From positions 2,356,001 through 2,420,000 of the forward strand of contig NC_011901.1 of NCBI RefSeq assembly GCF_000021985.1: a stretch of 64,000 nt of DNA. Direction: 5' to 3'. The stretch's first letter is position 1. Each line of letters starts with the position of its first letter. This document shows positions 4,866 through 60,927 of this stretch, in pieces. The position numbers were made by a program, and so were the translations under genes. The notes beneath the pieces were generated by a model that ran no database searches, was not told where the DNA came from, and saw only the letters and a program-made list of their open reading frames with translations. The stretch comes from Thioalkalivibrio sulfidiphilus HL-EbGr7 (lineage in GTDB: Bacteria > Pseudomonadota > Gammaproteobacteria > Ectothiorhodospirales > Ectothiorhodospiraceae).

Positions 4866-5331
4866 GTGTCTCGACCTCCGGGTCCGACAGGGCTTTGAGA
4901 ATGTTTTCAGGAACGCTCACGGGTCTGAAACCGCCTGCATCCAGACAGGCAATCTTGACCTCGCCGCGGCATAACAGTTCCGGCGCGTCCGATTCCCGCA
5001 GTCGCTCCACCGTCTGTGCGAATACCAGGCTCGCGCGTCCCCGCTGACTGATGGTCGCGGTGACTTCGAGCCGATCGTCCAGCCGGGCGGGGCGCAGGTA
5101 GTCCACCTGCACCGAGCGCACGGCGAACAGCACACCCTGCTGTTCCATGAGCCGCGCCTGATCGAAACCGAGGCTGCGCAGCCATTCGGTTCGGGCACGC
5201 TCCATGAAGCGCAGGTAATTGGCATAGAACACCACGCCGCCGGCATCGGTGTCCTCGTAGTAGACACGCACGGGCCAGACGAAGCTGCCGGGCGCGCGGC
5301 TCATGTTGGGGGATGCGTCACCGGAAGTCAC
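4855..5331 (-). CDS. ybgC: YbgC, Tol-Pal-associated acyl-CoA thioesterase
   Basis: Hot-dog-fold thioesterase of the 4-hydroxybenzoyl-CoA thioesterase type, acting on short-chain acyl-CoA or acyl-ACP in characterised relatives. The active-site segment YYEDTDAGGVVFYANYL (catalytic Asp29) and ERARTEWLR are conserved. It is the first gene of the ybgC-tolQRAB-pal-cpoB block and follows ruvB by 9 nt. A shorter start at MSRAPG (5304) is possible because the first nine residues are not conserved. Confidence 0.95.
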   Translation of the reverse strand: MTSGDASPNMSRAPGSFVWPVRVYYEDTDAGGVVFYANYLRFMERARTEWLRSLGFDQARLMEQQGVLFAVRSVQVDYLRPARLDDRLEVTATISQRGRASLVFAQTVERLRESDAPELLCRGEVKIACLDAGGFRPVSVPENILKALSDPEVETRER

Positions 5332-5340
5332 AGGCGTGGT

Positions 5341-6402
<1,062 letters not shown>

Positions 6403-6422
6403 AAGGGGGTCAACGGGGTACA

Positions 6423-6548
6423 GAGGCAAGATACAAGAGGCAAGATACAAGAAAAAACATGAAAAAAGAACGACAACAGCCTGTCAGATAGAAATATTTT
6501 CTCACCCCTGGTCTTTTCTTGTCTCTTGAATCTTGCCTCTTGTATCTG
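6423..6548. repeat. Iterated-heptamer inverted repeat, CAAG class (R1)
   Basis: The left arm (6423-6455) is a run of 7-nt words CAAGATA/CAAGAGG ending in an A tract. The right arm (6515-6548) is its reverse complement with one extra heptamer. The loop (6456-6514) is AT-richer than the surroundings. It fills the ruvA-ruvB gap, with the ruvA stop 5 nt beyond its right edge and the ruvB ATG about 20 nt from its left edge. Confidence 0.85.
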
Positions 6549-6552
6549 CGCT

Positions 6553-7158
6553 CTATTTGAGCGTTGCCTTCAAGGCCAGCCGGATCAGGTCCTCGGAACG
6601 CTCCGCCTCCCCCTCCACGGCGCTGATCAGGCGACTGGCCTCCTGGGGCTTGTAGCCCAGGGATACCAGGGCGGAGACGGCGTCACTGACCGGGTCCGGG
6701 GCCCTGGCGGCCGCGGCGGCCGGCTTGCCGCCGGTCAGCGTGACCGCGGCGGGCAGACTGCCCAGGCGGTCACGCATCTCCACCACCAGCCGCTCGGCGG
6801 TCTTGCGGCCGATGCCCGGCAGGCGCACCAGGGAGGCCACGTCTCCATCCATGACACAGCGGGAGAACTCGCTGGCGGTCATGCCCGAGAGGATGGCCAG
6901 TGCCATCTTGGCGCCCACGCCGGTGACCTTGATCAGGCTGCGGAACAGGGCGCGCTCCGACTCACTGGCGAAGCCGTAGAGCACGTGGGCGTCCTCGCGC
7001 ACGTGCAGGTGGGTGTGCAGGGTGACCTGCCCGCCCGGCTCGGGCAGGTCGTAGAAGGTGGAAAGCGGCGCCTCGATCTCGTAGCCCACCCCCTGCACGT
7101 CCAGGAGCAGGAAGGGGGGCTGCTTGCTCACCAACTCGCCACGCAGGCGCCCGATCAT
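6553..7158 (-). CDS. ruvA: RuvA, Holliday-junction-binding protein
   Basis: Tetrameric junction-recognition subunit of RuvAB. An N-terminal OB-fold ([10 protein letters not shown]...[11 protein letters not shown]), two helix-hairpin-helix motifs ([35 protein letters not shown]) and a C-terminal RuvB-contact domain ([13 protein letters not shown]) are evident in 201 residues. The ATG at 7158 overlaps the ruvC stop by 4 nt. The longer open frame reading back into ruvC has no family support. Confidence 0.97.
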
Positions 7159-54355: not shown

Positions 54356-54886
54356 ATGAGCGAGCAAAAGCACGAAGAGAACGTCAAGGACCGCCTGGCC
54401 CACGCCTACGACCGCATGCTGGAGCGGGTGCGCCACAGCCTTGAGACTGCCGAACACAAGGTGGCGCCGACCCTGGAGCATGCCCTGGAGGCGGCCAGGG
54501 AGAAGGCGGTGGAACTGGGTGAGATCACCCGGGAGGAAGCGGAGAAGGTGGGCGACTACGTGCGCCGCGACCTGCACGACATGGCGGACTACCTCAACGA
54601 GGCGAGCGACGACTACCGCAAGTGGTTCCGCATGGATCTGCAGCTGATCGAGGCCAGGATCATGGACCTGCTCGGCTCCATCGCGGACCGCACCCGGGTG
54701 GAAATCGCCGAAATCGCCGCCCGCGCCACGGTGCGCGAACGCCACACCGGCGAGATCACCGGACCCGGCGTGCTCATGTGCACCGAATGCGGCGAGGAAC
54801 TGCACTTCAAGAGCAGCGGCCACATCCCGCCCTGCCCCAAGTGCAAGTCCACCACCTTCCGGCGCACCCGCGGCGAAACATCGTAG
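54356..54886 (+). CDS. DUF1451 (YbeL-like) zinc-ribbon protein
   Basis: 176-residue cytoplasmic protein: an N-terminal helical region (about 1-110) followed by two CxxC knuckles (CTECGEELHF and PCPKCKSTTF) forming a zinc ribbon, as in E. coli YbeL. Function unknown. GGAGG lies 6-7 nt before the ATG. The stop codon TAG is part of the GTAG head of a REP element. Confidence 0.9.
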   Translation: MSEQKHEENVKDRLAHAYDRMLERVRHSLETAEHKVAPTLEHALEAAREKAVELGEITREEAEKVGDYVRRDLHDMADYLNEASDDYRKWFRMDLQLIEARIMDLLGSIADRTRVEIAEIAARATVRERHTGEITGPGVLMCTECGEELHFKSSGHIPPCPKCKSTTFRRTRGETS

Positions 54887-55034: not shown

Positions 55035-56177
55035 TCACCGAGTTCCTTTTCCGCGCAGGCGATGCACATGCGGCATGAGCGGCCCGGTCACCGGCTCGAT
55101 GCTCTGCCGCAGGGCGATACCGACGGAGTCCGACAAGCCGAAGATGGGGGCAATGAGCTGCTCGCCCACGCAGGCCAGGACCCGCAGGCTTTCAAGCAAG
55201 GGATGATCCTGTTCCGGCAGGGCGGACCTGAGCGCGGCCAGCTCGCCGCAAAGCCGCGCATCGGCCGGTCCACTGTCCGCTGCGGTGCAGACCGCCAGCA
55301 GGGATGCCATGTCCCGGTAGCGAGCCTCGGCGGGCTTGATGGGGGCGAAGTAGGCCTCGATGGCCTCGAACAGCTGGATCACCACACCCTGATCCGCACT
55401 GCGACCCAACACCCCTTCCACCGTCTCCAGCCAGGCCTGGCCCTGGGGACTCAACAGCCGCATAAGCAACCGGGCGTGGGCATTGCCGCCTTCGGCCAGG
55501 GCCGTAAGCAGCGGCTCCAGCTCGGCCAGGCGCGGATGGGGCGGCTGCTGCGAGGGCAGTGCATCGGGCAGGGTCTTCAGGAAACCCACCCGAAACGCGG
55601 GCTTGCGCTGGCCCCGGGACCAGAGGGAGGCCTGCACCTGCTCGCCCACCAGTCCGGGCTGCAGCACCAGGCGCACTGACTCCGCCACCTTCTGACTGTC
55701 CTCCTCGAAGGGCATGAACTCCACCAGGAACTCCGCCAGCACCCGGCCCATGTCGCTCGTCGCCACCTGTGCCCGGCGCAGCATGGCCCGCGCATGATCC
55801 GGGGACTGGTCCACCCACCAGGCGTGTCGGGCGATCTCCTCGGTGAGGCCTTCGGCATGCACCACCGCTGCCACCGCCTCAGGCTCGCCCAGGCGCAGCA
55901 GCTTGGTGAGGCTCTCGGTGCGGGCGTGGCCCGTGCGGGTCCAGCGGTGCATGAAGCGGGGATAGCCGTGGGGGGAACCCAGCACCTGGTTGGAGATCAT
56001 CTCGCGCACCTGGCGCAGGTATTTCTCCTCCGGGCAGTTGGGATGCAGCTGCACCTTGGCCTCGCCCCGGGGCGTGAGCCCCACCACCAGCAGCTTGCCC
56101 TCGTCGATGCGCAGGGCCTGGAGCTCCTGCTTGAGGAGGACGTTTAAACGCAGGCTGTCTTCTGGGCTCAGGTTCAT
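55035..56177 (-). CDS. dsrS: Probable DsrS-like sulfur-oxidation protein
   Basis: 380-residue soluble protein: LRLNVLLKQELQALRIDE near the N-terminus, VREMISNQVLGSPHGYPRFMHRWTRTGHAR, and the C-terminal half rich in helices. From memory this matches the DsrS family of sulfur oxidisers, whose first residues and LGSPxGYP block are similar. Catalytic residues are not known. Not in a dsr operon here: downstream on the same strand is R19, upstream is a VWA/MoxR pair. If not DsrS it is an unrecognised family. Confidence 0.58.
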   Translation of the reverse strand: MNLSPEDSLRLNVLLKQELQALRIDEGKLLVVGLTPRGEAKVQLHPNCPEEKYLRQVREMISNQVLGSPHGYPRFMHRWTRTGHARTESLTKLLRLGEPEAVAAVVHAEGLTEEIARHAWWVDQSPDHARAMLRRAQVATSDMGRVLAEFLVEFMPFEEDSQKVAESVRLVLQPGLVGEQVQASLWSRGQRKPAFRVGFLKTLPDALPSQQPPHPRLAELEPLLTALAEGGNAHARLLMRLLSPQGQAWLETVEGVLGRSADQGVVIQLFEAIEAYFAPIKPAEARYRDMASLLAVCTAADSGPADARLCGELAALRSALPEQDHPLLESLRVLACVGEQLIAPIFGLSDSVGIALRQSIEPVTGPLMPHVHRLRGKGTR

Positions 56178-56364: not shown

Positions 56365-57648
56365 TCAGTTCAACTGAACGCGCTGCCCCCAGGGCACCGG
56401 CGTCTTGCCCTTGACCAGCCACACCACGGGATAGTGGGGCGGCAGCGGGGGGAAATCCCCCTGGGCGTCGGTGAAGTACACCAGCAGGTCCGGCTGGCGG
56501 TCGAGGCCCGCGATCCAGTCGAATACGGGCCGGAAGTCGGTGCCGCCGCCGCCCTGGAAGGACTCGGGCAGGCGCAGGGTCTCCCAGGGCTCGAACACCC
56601 AGGGGCCATCGGCATTCATCTGGTGATCACAGGCGTGCAGGGTGACCCGGGCGCGGATCTGGCCCTTGATGGCGTCCACCTCGGTGATGAAGTCGGTCAT
56701 CTCCTTCGCAGACACGGAACCACTGGTGTCCAGCACCACCACCACGTCCAGGTTGTGGCTCCTGAGGTTCGGCAGGATGGCGGGCTCGCCGCGCCTGGAC
56801 GAGGGACGGCTGTAGCTGTAGTCGTCCCGGGCCTGGGCGCTCATGTAGCGGGCCAGCAGCATGCGCCAGGGCAGCTGGGGTTGCAGCAGGTGATCCACCA
56901 GGCGCGCCATGTCGCCGCTGAGCTTGCCCGCCTGCATGGCCTGCTGGGCGGCGCCGGCCAGACGCTGGCGCCACTGCACCGCCAGTTCCTCCCGCTCCTG
57001 GTGGCCGAGCGGCGGGGGCGGCTGGTCACCGCCCTGGTGCTCGTCGGTCTCCCGTTCGGGACTCTCGGCTTCGTTCTGCCCCTCGCCGGGATCCTGCTGC
57101 GGGTTCTCGTCGCGGCGCTTGCCCATGTCCTCCCCGGACTCCGGCGGCGGCTGCTTGCCCTTGCCGCTGCGCTGCTCCTCGGGCTGGTCGTAGACGTGCT
57201 GGTCCAGGGTCGAGTCGTTCTCGTTGTCCTGGATGAAGGGGTAAATCTCCTCGGCGGACATGCCCTCGTAGCTGCGTTCATACAGCATGCCCGGAGGCGG
57301 CGTGAGGCCGTCGTTGATGAGGATGGGATTGATGGCGTAGTCGCAGGCGATGTCCCAGAGGTGCTTGACCCGGTGGCCGCGACGGGCGAAGTGCCCCAGT
57401 GCACAGTGCAGGGCCTCGTGGGCCAGCATGTACTGCACCTCGGCCAAGTTGAGCTTGTCGATGTACTCGGCGTTGTAATAGAGCTTGCGCGCGTCCGTGG
57501 CGGTGGTCCTGCACCAGTCTCCGGCGGGCTCAAGCGGCAGGCGCAGGACCAGGGCGCCGAGAAACGGCTTGTCCAGGATCAGGCGCGTGCGCGCCGCGCC
57601 CAGCTTGGTTTCGACGTCCGGCCGGCTCACGAGAAGGCTGGCCCGCAT
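56365..57648 (-). CDS. VWA-like protein with DUF2201-type metallopeptidase motif
   Basis: 427 residues. The N-terminal half has a zinc-protease-like motif HEALHCALGHFARR (HExxH, about 94) as in the DUF2201 family. The middle is a charged, low-complexity region (about 145-215). The C-terminal half is a VWA-like domain (VVVLDTSGSVSAKEM, about 305; MIDAS DxSxS). These proteins pair with MoxR ATPases in complex assembly. The start ATG is inside a 29-bp inverted repeat; GTG 57630 is a plausible alternative. Confidence 0.85.
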   Translation of the reverse strand: MRASLLVSRPDVETKLGAARTRLILDKPFLGALVLRLPLEPAGDWCRTTATDARKLYYNAEYIDKLNLAEVQYMLAHEALHCALGHFARRGHRVKHLWDIACDYAINPILINDGLTPPPGMLYERSYEGMSAEEIYPFIQDNENDSTLDQHVYDQPEEQRSGKGKQPPPESGEDMGKRRDENPQQDPGEGQNEAESPERETDEHQGGDQPPPPLGHQEREELAVQWRQRLAGAAQQAMQAGKLSGDMARLVDHLLQPQLPWRMLLARYMSAQARDDYSYSRPSSRRGEPAILPNLRSHNLDVVVVLDTSGSVSAKEMTDFITEVDAIKGQIRARVTLHACDHQMNADGPWVFEPWETLRLPESFQGGGGTDFRPVFDWIAGLDRQPDLLVYFTDAQGDFPPLPPHYPVVWLVKGKTPVPWGQRVQLN

Positions 57649-57773: not shown

Positions 57774-58820
57774 CTAGCTCTCGTAGAGCATCAGGTCCGC
57801 CACCTCGGTGGCCCAGCGGCCGAACTCCGGCACCGCGAACAGCGGCTCGCCCAGGGCACGGTGCATGTCCATGATCATCATCACGCCCATCTCCCGCTGC
57901 GGGAACACGCCGGCGTAGTTGAGGATGTTGCCCCAGACCACCGGTGCCTCCTCCGCCTCCCGGGCACGGATGGCGCGCCCCACCAGGGCGGCGGCCACGG
58001 CGTACTGCAGGTCGATCTCCCGGGGCGCCGGCAGGCGCTCGCCGCCGATGATGGCGTCCAGATCCGGCAGATCCTCCAGGTGGGCGAGGAAGGCGGCCAG
58101 TTCGATGCCGGCGGCCTGGCCGACACAGGCCTGCAGCGCGCCGGAGAGCAGCTCCGGCTGGCCCTCGAACTTCTGCAGGGCCCGGTGGGCGAACTCCCAG
58201 GAACGGGGCGAGGGGAAGGCCACGGGGTTATGGGCCGGGTCGAAATCGAACAGCAGGTCCGGGCGGAAACGGATGAAGGCGATGATGCGATCGTCGATAC
58301 CGGCACCGTAGGCCCAGGCGGCCCAGTCGTCCACGTTCAGGTCCACCTCGAAGTGGGAGAATCGGTTGGCGAGCGGCGCGGGCATGGTGTAGGTCACGCC
58401 CCGGTCGCCCTGGCGGTTGCCGGCGGCGAAGATCGCCCAGCCCTCGGGCACCTGGTAGTTGCCCAGGCGTCGGTCCAGGATCAGCTGGTAGGCGGCGGCC
58501 GAGACACTGGGCGGCGCCGAGGTGATCTCGTCCAGGAACAGGACGCCCTCGGGCCCGTGCCGCTCGGCATCAGGCAACATGGAGGGGATGGCCCACTCCA
58601 CCCGGTCGCCGTGCTTGAAGGGGATGCCGCGCAGGTCCGAGGGCTCCATCTGGGACAGGCGGATGTCGATCAGCGGCACGCCGTGGCGGTTCGCCACCTC
58701 AGTGATCATCTGGGACTTGCCCACCCCCGGCGGGCCCCAGAGCATCACGGGGGTGTGATGCCCCGAACGGGTGCTCTGAAACTCCCGGTCCAGCACTTGC
58801 AGCAACAGCGCAGGTCGCAT
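57774..58820 (-). CDS. MoxR-like AAA+ ATPase
   Basis: 348 residues, AAA_5 type. Walker A WGPPGVGKS near residue 29, Walker B GVLFLDEIT near residue 95, sensor GNRQGDRGVTYTMP and the C-terminal lid. It partners the VWA/DUF2201-like protein encoded immediately downstream on the same strand, as in many MoxR-VWA pairs acting in metal-centre or complex assembly. Target unknown. The 268-nt gap to 59089 contains no recognised signal. Confidence 0.9.
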   Translation of the reverse strand: MRPALLLQVLDREFQSTRSGHHTPVMLWGPPGVGKSQMITEVANRHGVPLIDIRLSQMEPSDLRGIPFKHGDRVEWAIPSMLPDAERHGPEGVLFLDEITSAPPSVSAAAYQLILDRRLGNYQVPEGWAIFAAGNRQGDRGVTYTMPAPLANRFSHFEVDLNVDDWAAWAYGAGIDDRIIAFIRFRPDLLFDFDPAHNPVAFPSPRSWEFAHRALQKFEGQPELLSGALQACVGQAAGIELAAFLAHLEDLPDLDAIIGGERLPAPREIDLQYAVAAALVGRAIRAREAEEAPVVWGNILNYAGVFPQREMGVMMIMDMHRALGEPLFAVPEFGRWATEVADLMLYES

Positions 58821-59088
58821 GGCGCTCCTCAGGCAAAAAACTTGATCAAACCGATGAGACTACCGGAGGAGCAGCGCCCGCCGCAAAACCACATGGGAGA
58901 GGGTCGCACTACCCATTCGGGATAGACGGGGTCCCTGCACCAGGGCCGCGCAGGGATGGGGCACTGCCGCCCGGTTTCGTGCACGGCGGTCCGGCAATGT
59001 GCCGTTCGTACCGGAAATCGCGCCGCTCATCCAGCCCGCATCTTGCTGTGGGTATTGGTGCGACACACAACCACAACAGGGATGCCCC

Positions 59089-60927
59089 ATGCTCCAACTC
59101 CTACGCTCGTTGACCCTGCTTGGCGCCTTCAATCCCGACACCGCCGGCAGCGAAGCACCGCCCGCCGACCCGGTCCCCGTCGACAGCGCTTCGACCAGCG
59201 CCGAACCCCTGCCCGTGCCATCCGCCGTGCAACTCATGGCCCTGGCCCGACGCCTGCTGGAACACGCGGAGCAAGGCAGTGCCAGCCTGGCCCAGCGCAT
59301 GGACGAGATGGACCAGCGCTCCAGCACGCTGAAGATCGCCCTGGATGCGGCGGAAACCCAGATGCAGCAAAGCCTGCACTCGGCGGAGGCCCTGGAGGGC
59401 GAGATCGCCACCGGCGTGCAGGACACCCAGCGCCACATCGGTGAAGGCCTGGCCCGCATCGACGGGGAACTCACCCGCCGCCTGGCCGAAACCACGCAGA
59501 TCGTCTCCCTCATCGAGGGCATCGCCAACGAGCTCAACCTGCTGGCCATCAACGCGGCCATCGAGGCCGCCCACGCGGAGCGCCACGGGGCCACCTTCGG
59601 CGTGGTGGCAGAGCGTATCCGGGAGCTGGCGGGATCGACCCGCAGCCATGCCCAACGCATCAAGGAACAGCTGGATTTCGGCGACCTGCACGAGGCCCTC
59701 GAACGCTTCCAGCAGGACACGGGAGACACCCTGGGCGCGCTGGCCGACAGCACCTCGGCATCCACCCGCCGGCAGCTGGGCAATTTCCAGCACATGCACG
59801 CGCACCTGGAATCGGTGCGGGACAACAACAAGGTGATCTTCGAGGTGCTGGGCCAGAGCCAGTCGGCGGTGGAGCGGGTCGCGGGCAAGACCCGCTGGAG
59901 CCGGTCGCTGCTCGCCGAGGGTACAACCGCGCTGGAACAGGGCGGCGAGCCGGCCCTCACCCGCCTGCTGCAGGACCGGGATCTGCTGCGCGCGCCGGAC
60001 TTCGACCGCCTGGCCGAGATCCGCCGGCGCGGCGTGCTCCGGGTGGCCATCGAGCCGGACTTCAAGGGCCTGTCCTTCAGGCGCCGTCCCGGCGATCCCC
60101 TGCAGGGCCTGGATGCGGACTACGCCCGGGCCTTCGCCCGCTGGCTCGGCGTGGAGTGCCAGTTCCTGGAGTGCCCCTGGGACCAGTGCACCGAACTGCT
60201 GGCCGCTGGCCGTGCCCCGGGAGAACCGGAGGCGGATCTGGTGTGGAGTGCCCTGCCCCCCAATGCCAGCTACCGTGACGTGGCCTTCTCGGAATCCTAT
60301 ACCTACCTGCCCTATGCCCTGGCCCGGCGCAAGGGGGATACCCGCATCAGCGGCATCGCCGACCTGGAGGGACGGGTGCTGGGCTGCATCAACGACCCGG
60401 CCGCCTTCGACACCCTGGCGGGCGCGGGCCTGCGCTGGCCGGCCAACCAGGACCAGCCAGGAGGCCGGGTGCGTCTGGCCAACCTGGTGGCCTACTCCGA
60501 CCAGGGGCGCATCCACGACTGCCTGGCGGATGGCCTGGTGGACGCCTTCGCGGTGGACCGGCCCATCTACTGGTGGGCCTGTTACGGCGAGGACAGCCCC
60601 TGGCGCGGACAGATCGAACTGCTCCCCGCCCCCATCAGCGCCTCGCCCTGGTACTACGCTGCTGGGGTGTCGGCAGAACCCTCCGGCTACCACCTGCTGG
60701 CGGCGCTGAACCGTTTCATCGGCGAGTTCCGGGGCAGCCCGGAACGCCGCGCCATCGAACAGCGCTGGCAGGGCCAGCTGCTCGATGGCACCCAGAGCTA
60801 TCGGCAGGAACCCGGCGACCTGCCGGGGGAGACGGAGTTGCGGGAGCGCTACCTGGACCATTGCCAGAGACTCGGCATCGAGCCCAGGACGGCGGAGGAT
60901 GCCGATCCGCGGCGACTGTCCGCCTGA
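59089..60927 (+). CDS. Soluble chemoreceptor-type signalling domain fused to a solute-binding domain
   Basis: 612 residues with no membrane helix and no signal peptide (start MLQLLRSLTLL; AGGGA just upstream). Residues about 60-260 are coiled coil with the MCP hairpin tip signature (ELNLLAINAAIEAAHAERHG, ATFGVVAERIRELAGST). Residues about 330-585 match a family-3 solute-binding domain (RRGVLRVAIEPDFKGLSFR, LEGRVLGCINDPAAFDTLAG). In ordinary receptors the ligand domain is N-terminal and periplasmic; here it is C-terminal and seemingly cytoplasmic. No che genes nearby. Confidence 0.82.
   Translation: MLQLLRSLTLLGAFNPDTAGSEAPPADPVPVDSASTSAEPLPVPSAVQLMALARRLLEHAEQGSASLAQRMDEMDQRSSTLKIALDAAETQMQQSLHSAEALEGEIATGVQDTQRHIGEGLARIDGELTRRLAETTQIVSLIEGIANELNLLAINAAIEAAHAERHGATFGVVAERIRELAGSTRSHAQRIKEQLDFGDLHEALERFQQDTGDTLGALADSTSASTRRQLGNFQHMHAHLESVRDNNKVIFEVLGQSQSAVERVAGKTRWSRSLLAEGTTALEQGGEPALTRLLQDRDLLRAPDFDRLAEIRRRGVLRVAIEPDFKGLSFRRRPGDPLQGLDADYARAFARWLGVECQFLECPWDQCTELLAAGRAPGEPEADLVWSALPPNASYRDVAFSESYTYLPYALARRKGDTRISGIADLEGRVLGCINDPAAFDTLAGAGLRWPANQDQPGGRVRLANLVAYSDQGRIHDCLADGLVDAFAVDRPIYWWACYGEDSPWRGQIELLPAPISASPWYYAAGVSAEPSGYHLLAALNRFIGEFRGSPERRAIEQRWQGQLLDGTQSYRQEPGDLPGETELRERYLDHCQRLGIEPRTAEDADPRRLSA

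Follow-up and report, generated by a model that had tools for sequence, protein, structure and literature searches.

A soluble chemoreceptor-type protein of Thioalkalivibrio sulfidiphilus with a C-terminal solute-binding domain: a candidate family of internal chemical sensors

In Thioalkalivibrio sulfidiphilus HL-EbGr7 (genome of 3,464,554 bp), we have found a gene whose 612-residue product combines an N-terminal MCP signalling hairpin with a C-terminal family-3 solute-binding (SBP) domain, and contains no membrane segment. We consider it probable that this protein is a soluble, cytosolic chemoreceptor-type sensor, in which the C-terminal PBP domain would read an internal solute and its closure would bias the tip that faces CheA and CheW. 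Because the same layout recurs in scattered, otherwise unrelated bacteria, these proteins appear to make up a small family of as yet uncharacterised sensors of internal chemicals.

Cytosolic chemoreceptors sense the internal state, yet ligands have been assigned to few of them, and among C-terminal sensors the zinc-binding CZB type is the one best known. A family with a cytosolic PBP pocket would place an input module on the distal end of the hairpin whose ligand mechanics are well understood and can be followed by closure, thermal shift and ITC, and the ligand and the signal path should therefore be testable using the isolated domain. A search of the openly available papers yielded no description of an MCP hairpin followed by SBP_bac_3.

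Results

Gene and domain architecture

The gene is located in the 64,000-nucleotide stretch of DNA that was analysed (hereafter, the window), and its features are given in Table 1. The ORF tool called a longer alternative start (GTG 58999), but the ATG at 59089 is favoured because it is preceded by a Shine-Dalgarno-like sequence and because the reading frame of strain ALJ17 closes nine codons upstream of the equivalent ATG. The open reading frame, its coordinates, the tip motif and the order of the domains are all as a first-pass annotation of this DNA had them, and its assignment of the hairpin to the N-terminal and the binding domain to the C-terminal part is borne out by the Pfam order, both here and in relatives. 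MCPsignal is matched with 57.7 bits (E 1.8e-15, cut-off 34.6) and SBP_bac_3 with 52.1 bits (E 7.2e-14, cut-off 26.4). The MCPsignal alignment spans only positions 31-117 of the 172 in the profile, so that the match is limited to some 90 residues on either side of and including the tip; the entire hairpin is predicted to comprise residues 46-296, with its tip near 163-166, and the binding domain residues ~304-600. Hence, although the order stands, the simple adjacency of the two domains does not, since the C-terminal hairpin arm intervenes. The CZB domain, which is defined by a His/Cys zinc site, has no Pfam match in the 612-residue protein.

The full-length AlphaFold2 model (monomer, nine-sequence alignment) was of moderate confidence, with a mean pLDDT of 68 and a pTM of 0.48. 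It predicts one long helix, a turn, and two further helices leading to an alpha/beta domain, such that the arms on either side of the tip (residues 46-162 versus 167-296) would be of similar length. Modelled alone, the binding domain reached a pTM of 0.81, which is better than the full-length model. A Foldseek search with the isolated domain produced 1,190 PDB matches at E <= 0.001, and the top matches were family-3 amino-acid binding proteins (E ~1e-14, TM-score by target length ~0.7).

The receptor gene is divergent from a MoxR-VWA type pair, in which a gene encoding an AAA (MoxR-like) ATPase (57774-58820, minus strand) adjoins one encoding a DUF2201 metallopeptidase/VWA-like protein (56365-57648, minus strand). 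Beside this pair is a gene (55035-56177, minus strand) for whose 380-residue product no Pfam family exceeded its cut-off, and a DUF1451 zinc-ribbon protein (175.5 bits, Pfam) is encoded at 54356-54886 on the plus strand.

Table 1. Features of the receptor gene; coordinates are positions in the window.
Feature	Coordinates	Strand	Basis
AGGGA, Shine-Dalgarno-like (putative role)	59078..59082	+	6 bases before ATG 59089; read directly
Whole gene, 612 aa, stop included	59089..60927	+	full-length ALJ17 protein 97% identical
N-terminal tail, residues 1-45, predicted unstructured, unconstrained	59089..59223	+	pLDDT <50 for residues 1-42; dN/dS ~1.15
N-terminal arm of MCP hairpin, residues 46-162, one long predicted helix	59224..59574	+	AlphaFold2 model
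MCPsignal (PF00015) match, residues 120-212	59446..59724	+	Pfam
Hairpin turn, residues 163-166 (predicted)	59575..59586	+	AlphaFold2 model
Tip changes E164, T169, R176 (Tsr G390, G395, E402) and R165, A168 (Tsr E391, R394), residues 164-176	59578..59616	+	family alignment
C-terminal arm helix 1, residues 167-194 (predicted)	59587..59670	+	AlphaFold2 model
Predicted helix break, residues 195-197, at conserved [DN][LFM] motif, ~31 residues past tip	59671..59679	+	model and family alignment
C-terminal arm helix 2, residues 198-296 (predicted)	59680..59976	+	AlphaFold2 model
Solute-binding domain, PBP type II fold, residues 304-600 (SBP_bac_3 match 317-562 = 60037-60774)	59998..60888	+	Pfam, model, structure search
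ECPWDQCTELL, residues 361-371	60169..60201	+	E361, P363, W364, D365, L371 invariant in family
D490, invariant, at amine-binding aspartate position of amino-acid SBPs (putative role)	60556..60558	+	alignment

Topology and selection

The highest 19-residue Kyte-Doolittle mean in the protein is 1.27 and that of its relatives (n=30) is at most 1.7; ten MCPs of T. sulfidiphilus itself have maxima of 2.49-3.25. In this hydropathy scan, a transmembrane-like or signal-peptide hydrophobic segment was found in none of the 31 members, which agrees with the first-pass annotation. The proteins of HL-EbGr7 and ALJ17 differ at 20 of the 612 residues, corresponding to an overall dN/dS of 0.18. The regional values, which are rough because they derive from this one strain pair with few changes, are ~1.15 for residues 1-45, 0.16 for the hairpin, 0.17 for the tip and 0.08 for the SBP domain. 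Both domains are therefore under purifying selection and the first 45 residues are not; being unconstrained, unlike a needed signal, these residues argue against a hidden export signal.

Family and distribution

We recovered 30 further members, all of which (30/30) have the MCP-then-SBP order without membrane segments, and the MCP tip was found in 31/31. Both Pfam models were matched in the order MCPsignal, SBP_bac_3 in all ten relatives scanned. A search for the same domain order in other genomes, a check that the first-pass annotation had proposed, thus gave a positive answer. The members are from strain ALJ17, Methylobacterium/Methylorubrum and several further Pseudomonadota lineages; when each species was represented by one genome, the full-length relatives found were those of ALJ17 (97%) and of seven Methylobacterium/Methylorubrum species (43-46% identity).

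A profile search with the binding domain was positive in 7 of 398 sampled Pseudomonadota genomes, T. sulfidiphilus included. Fused members scored at least 380 bits and the next best match 61 bits, and this drop leaves no close SBP-only orthologue of the C-terminal domain. Members were present in 2 of 5 Thioalkalivibrio genomes, in 1 of 149 sampled genomes of the Methylobacterium family, in 13 of 29 genomes of family f241 and in 7 of 48 of a second further family; no full-length relative was encountered among 72,556 plasmids. In a comparison by eye that took in T. sulfidiphilus, a number of loci from the Methylobacterium group and five other genomes, the flanking genes differed among the lineages. 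The gene is an orphan everywhere, and its context therefore gives no clue to the ligand or a partner. The patchy occurrence of this orphan gene suggests loss or transfer.

Several loci have features of their own. Most f241 carriers have two tandem receptor genes with ~70% mutual identity (L044/L051-L062), suggesting, from the sequences, that the copies may be paralogues with different ligands. A second subfamily (L047, L067, L068 and L069) is marked by an additional conserved stretch at the N-terminus, W....LC.GDIE.AL..., and by PWDRCLQ.L instead of PWD..TELL. At L073, in one carrier genome, a gene that by eye encodes a membrane-type MCP (4884-6590, minus strand) is near the receptor gene, which is flanked on the opposite side by what looks like an ammonium transporter gene.

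Chemosensory genes and the signalling tip

T. sulfidiphilus HL-EbGr7 is a motile sulfur oxidiser with a polar flagellum (PMC3072093), and its genome encodes 14 MCPsignal proteins. Its CheW-domain matches are clustered near 1.44-1.45 Mb and again, in a Pil-Chp-like cluster, near 3.04-3.05 Mb; two CheV-like genes stand on their own. The receptor gene, at 2.415 Mb, is far from all of them. The cytoplasmic che cluster that the first-pass annotation advised looking for was not seen as a dedicated locus in this CheW-domain search. CheA and CheW are encoded in every carrier genome tested, and in three of these (G407, G743 and G630) just a single CheA-like ORF is seen, together with one CheW.

Among 16 representatives, the 612-residue protein is the sole exception at three otherwise invariant positions, all of them in the hairpin tip. 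These are equivalent to G390, G395 and E402 of Tsr and are changed only in the two Thioalkalivibrio proteins, being invariant in the 29 other members and in ten host MCPs. The equivalents of E391 and R394 are also changed in the Thioalkalivibrio proteins, to Arg and Ala, respectively, and so is the R388 position, which is non-Arg in five other members too. In receptor trimers, an E385-R388 lock and stacking of F396 have been described (PMC8144572). The T. sulfidiphilus protein keeps the equivalents of N381, E385, G393, F396, V398, V399, A400 and L406, and the rest of the family keeps those of N381, E385, G390, G393, G395, F396, V398 and E402. Most of the MCP tip is thereby preserved in the family, but Q374, the first residue of the motif QTN (Tsr 374-376) that is canonical at the tip, is missing throughout. 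The MCPsignal score of T. sulfidiphilus is the lowest of the eleven members scanned, with 74-87 bits for the relatives. Because the dN/dS of the tip is still low, its function in Thioalkalivibrio looks altered rather than lost, as far as one strain pair can indicate. The proposal of the first-pass annotation that the protein feeds a chemosensory array is likely to hold for the family, but CheA/CheW coupling is uncertain for the T. sulfidiphilus receptor because three tip residues that are invariant elsewhere are changed.

The binding domain and its ligand

Between Thioalkalivibrio and Methylobacterium, identity is ~56% in the binding domain versus ~28% in the hairpin, so that the input end appears to be under the stronger constraint. 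The 16 representatives share 81 invariant positions, including P363, W364, D365, D383, P390, P391, D490 and W496. W364 coincides with the position at which family-3 SBPs have their stacking aromatic residue, which would place it in the pocket. In amino-acid SBPs, the TxxR arginine holds the alpha-carboxylate and an aspartate binds the amine. When aligned through AncQR/AncCDT, the TxxR arginine is absent from 31/31 sequences; hence, of the residues of the amino-acid-binding subgroup, the Arg is missing in all members and the Asp (D490) is kept. This makes it unlikely that the domain binds a free alpha-amino acid in the usual pose, even though the aspartate of the amine site remains, and the "amino-acid type" of ligand put forward in the first-pass annotation finds no support. 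The ligand would be an internal small molecule, probably one that is amine-bearing or otherwise non-canonical.

It should be noted that the cysteine pair C362/C367 (CPWDQC, 60172-60189) is present in Thioalkalivibrio and Methylobacterium only; a metal or redox site of the family was considered here and rejected, as one or both cysteines are missing in most other members.

Discussion

In the mechanism that we propose, two chains would pair through their antiparallel hairpins to form a four-helix coiled coil, the tip of which would be the end facing CheA/CheW. At the opposite end, the C-terminal arm would enter the PBP type II domain directly, and each dimer would therefore have two cytosolic clam-shell pockets. 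An internal small molecule may close the clam shell, and the resulting pull on the C-terminal arm could bias the tip, for which the conserved helix break 31 residues past the tip is a plausible hinge. The step from the tip to the kinase is the least certain one in T. sulfidiphilus. Of the earlier idea of a cytoplasmic sensor of a small solute of the amino-acid type, the cytoplasmic sensor is retained, in a family kept in genomes that encode CheA and CheW, and the amino-acid type is not.

Other explanations have to be weighed against this one. That two genes were joined through a frameshift or misassembly, as the first-pass annotation had allowed for, has a negligible probability and can be regarded as refuted, because the relatives carry the same continuous order: the frame is uninterrupted in another strain as well as across many lineages, and the order in 30 further members. 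SBP_bac_3 domains are mostly periplasmic, and it could accordingly be argued that the C-terminal domain reaches the outside of the membrane through an unrecognised route. We consider this very improbable, since 0/31 members have a hydrophobic segment, the 45 N-terminal residues, where the first-pass annotation had left room for an export signal, are free to vary, and the hairpin must be cytosolic to contact CheA/CheW. In addition, a survey with SBP Pfam profiles recorded matches that are cytosolic proteins, among them sensor domains of cytosolic signalling proteins (PMC9602780). It is less far-fetched, but still improbable, that the binding domain does not sense a solute and acts instead as an enzyme or as an interaction module without a ligand. 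Cyclohexadienyl dehydratase (CDT) has the family-3 fold, the best sequence matches in the PDB are reconstructions of ancestral CDT, and the canonical carboxylate arginine is missing. However, a consensus effect probably explains the CDT match, given that the best-scoring chains are ancestral reconstructions (CDT-Anc1 / AncCDT-1, AncQR), the residues W364, D365, D383, P390, P391 and D490 of the cleft region are invariant, and the binding domain is the best-conserved part of the protein.

The most probable of the alternatives, although we regard it as unlikely, concerns the tip: the T. sulfidiphilus receptor may have lost normal kinase coupling and may now be a decoy, a modifier of the array or a scaffold that responds to ligand and works with another partner, with its relatives still using CheA/CheW. 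The three tip exceptions, at positions that host MCPs also keep invariant, and the lowest MCPsignal score would fit such a role, and the selection on the tip in the two strains indicates that it is not decaying. Against this, eight of the characteristic tip residues listed above are retained, and compensating changes are possible in the CheW or CheV of the host. A bolder and rather doubtful form of our own reading would be that the family constitutes a distinct class, in which a periplasmic-type clam shell was moved into the cytosol for an internal metabolite, and in which the standard kinase-facing residues of the Thioalkalivibrio tip were given up under continuing selection, resulting in a changed partner or a ligand-controlled array modifier. 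Returning to the preferred reading of a cytosolic sensor, the divergent Thioalkalivibrio tip offers a natural variant for learning which tip residues the kinase needs.

Comparison with known systems

The closest parallels in layout are TlpD of Helicobacter pylori, a cytosolic receptor whose sensor is C-terminal and whose structure has been solved (PMC12871147), and the other CZB chemoreceptors, which are likewise soluble, have the hairpin before a C-terminal sensor and lack a transmembrane helix (PMC12871147, PMC7390727). In both cases the sensor is attached to the end of the arm that is distal to the kinase tip. The sensor of TlpD and the other CZB receptors is the Zn-binding four-helix CZB domain, whereas here it is a two-lobed PBP domain; moreover, TlpD has a PAS domain in front of its hairpin, and the T. 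sulfidiphilus protein differs also by its divergent tip. An archaeal survey counts SBP_bac domains as LBDs of chemoreceptors and also records cytoplasmic receptors with C-terminal LBDs; the text consulted does not name the MCP-SBP_bac_3 pairing (PMC9680633).

Methylobacterium, which also carries the MCP-SBP_bac_3 family, has a soluble MCP, MtpA, a receptor for formaldehyde/methanol taxis whose GFP fusion is cytosolic and in which its authors detected the MCP signalling domain alone (Pfam at E 0.001) (PMC10613068, PMC12202990). Identity with MtpA was rejected on this reported domain content; it is probably a different protein because the SBP_bac_3 domain of the present family is detectable at 1e-8 or better.

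In fold and overall sequence, the C-terminal domain resembles the periplasmic family-3 amino-acid binding proteins GlnH, LAO and ArgBP (PF00497), but it has no signal peptide, is placed after an MCP hairpin and lacks the TxxR arginine, and clade-specific motifs (PWD..TELL / PWDRCLQ.L, A[LIMV]PP and DAFA.D.P) set it apart from them. The use of a family-3 SBP-like domain as signalling input is shared with the BvgS-type Venus-flytrap kinases. There, the input domain lies in the periplasm, at the N-terminal end of a transmembrane histidine kinase, whereas here it forms the C-terminal part of a soluble MCP.
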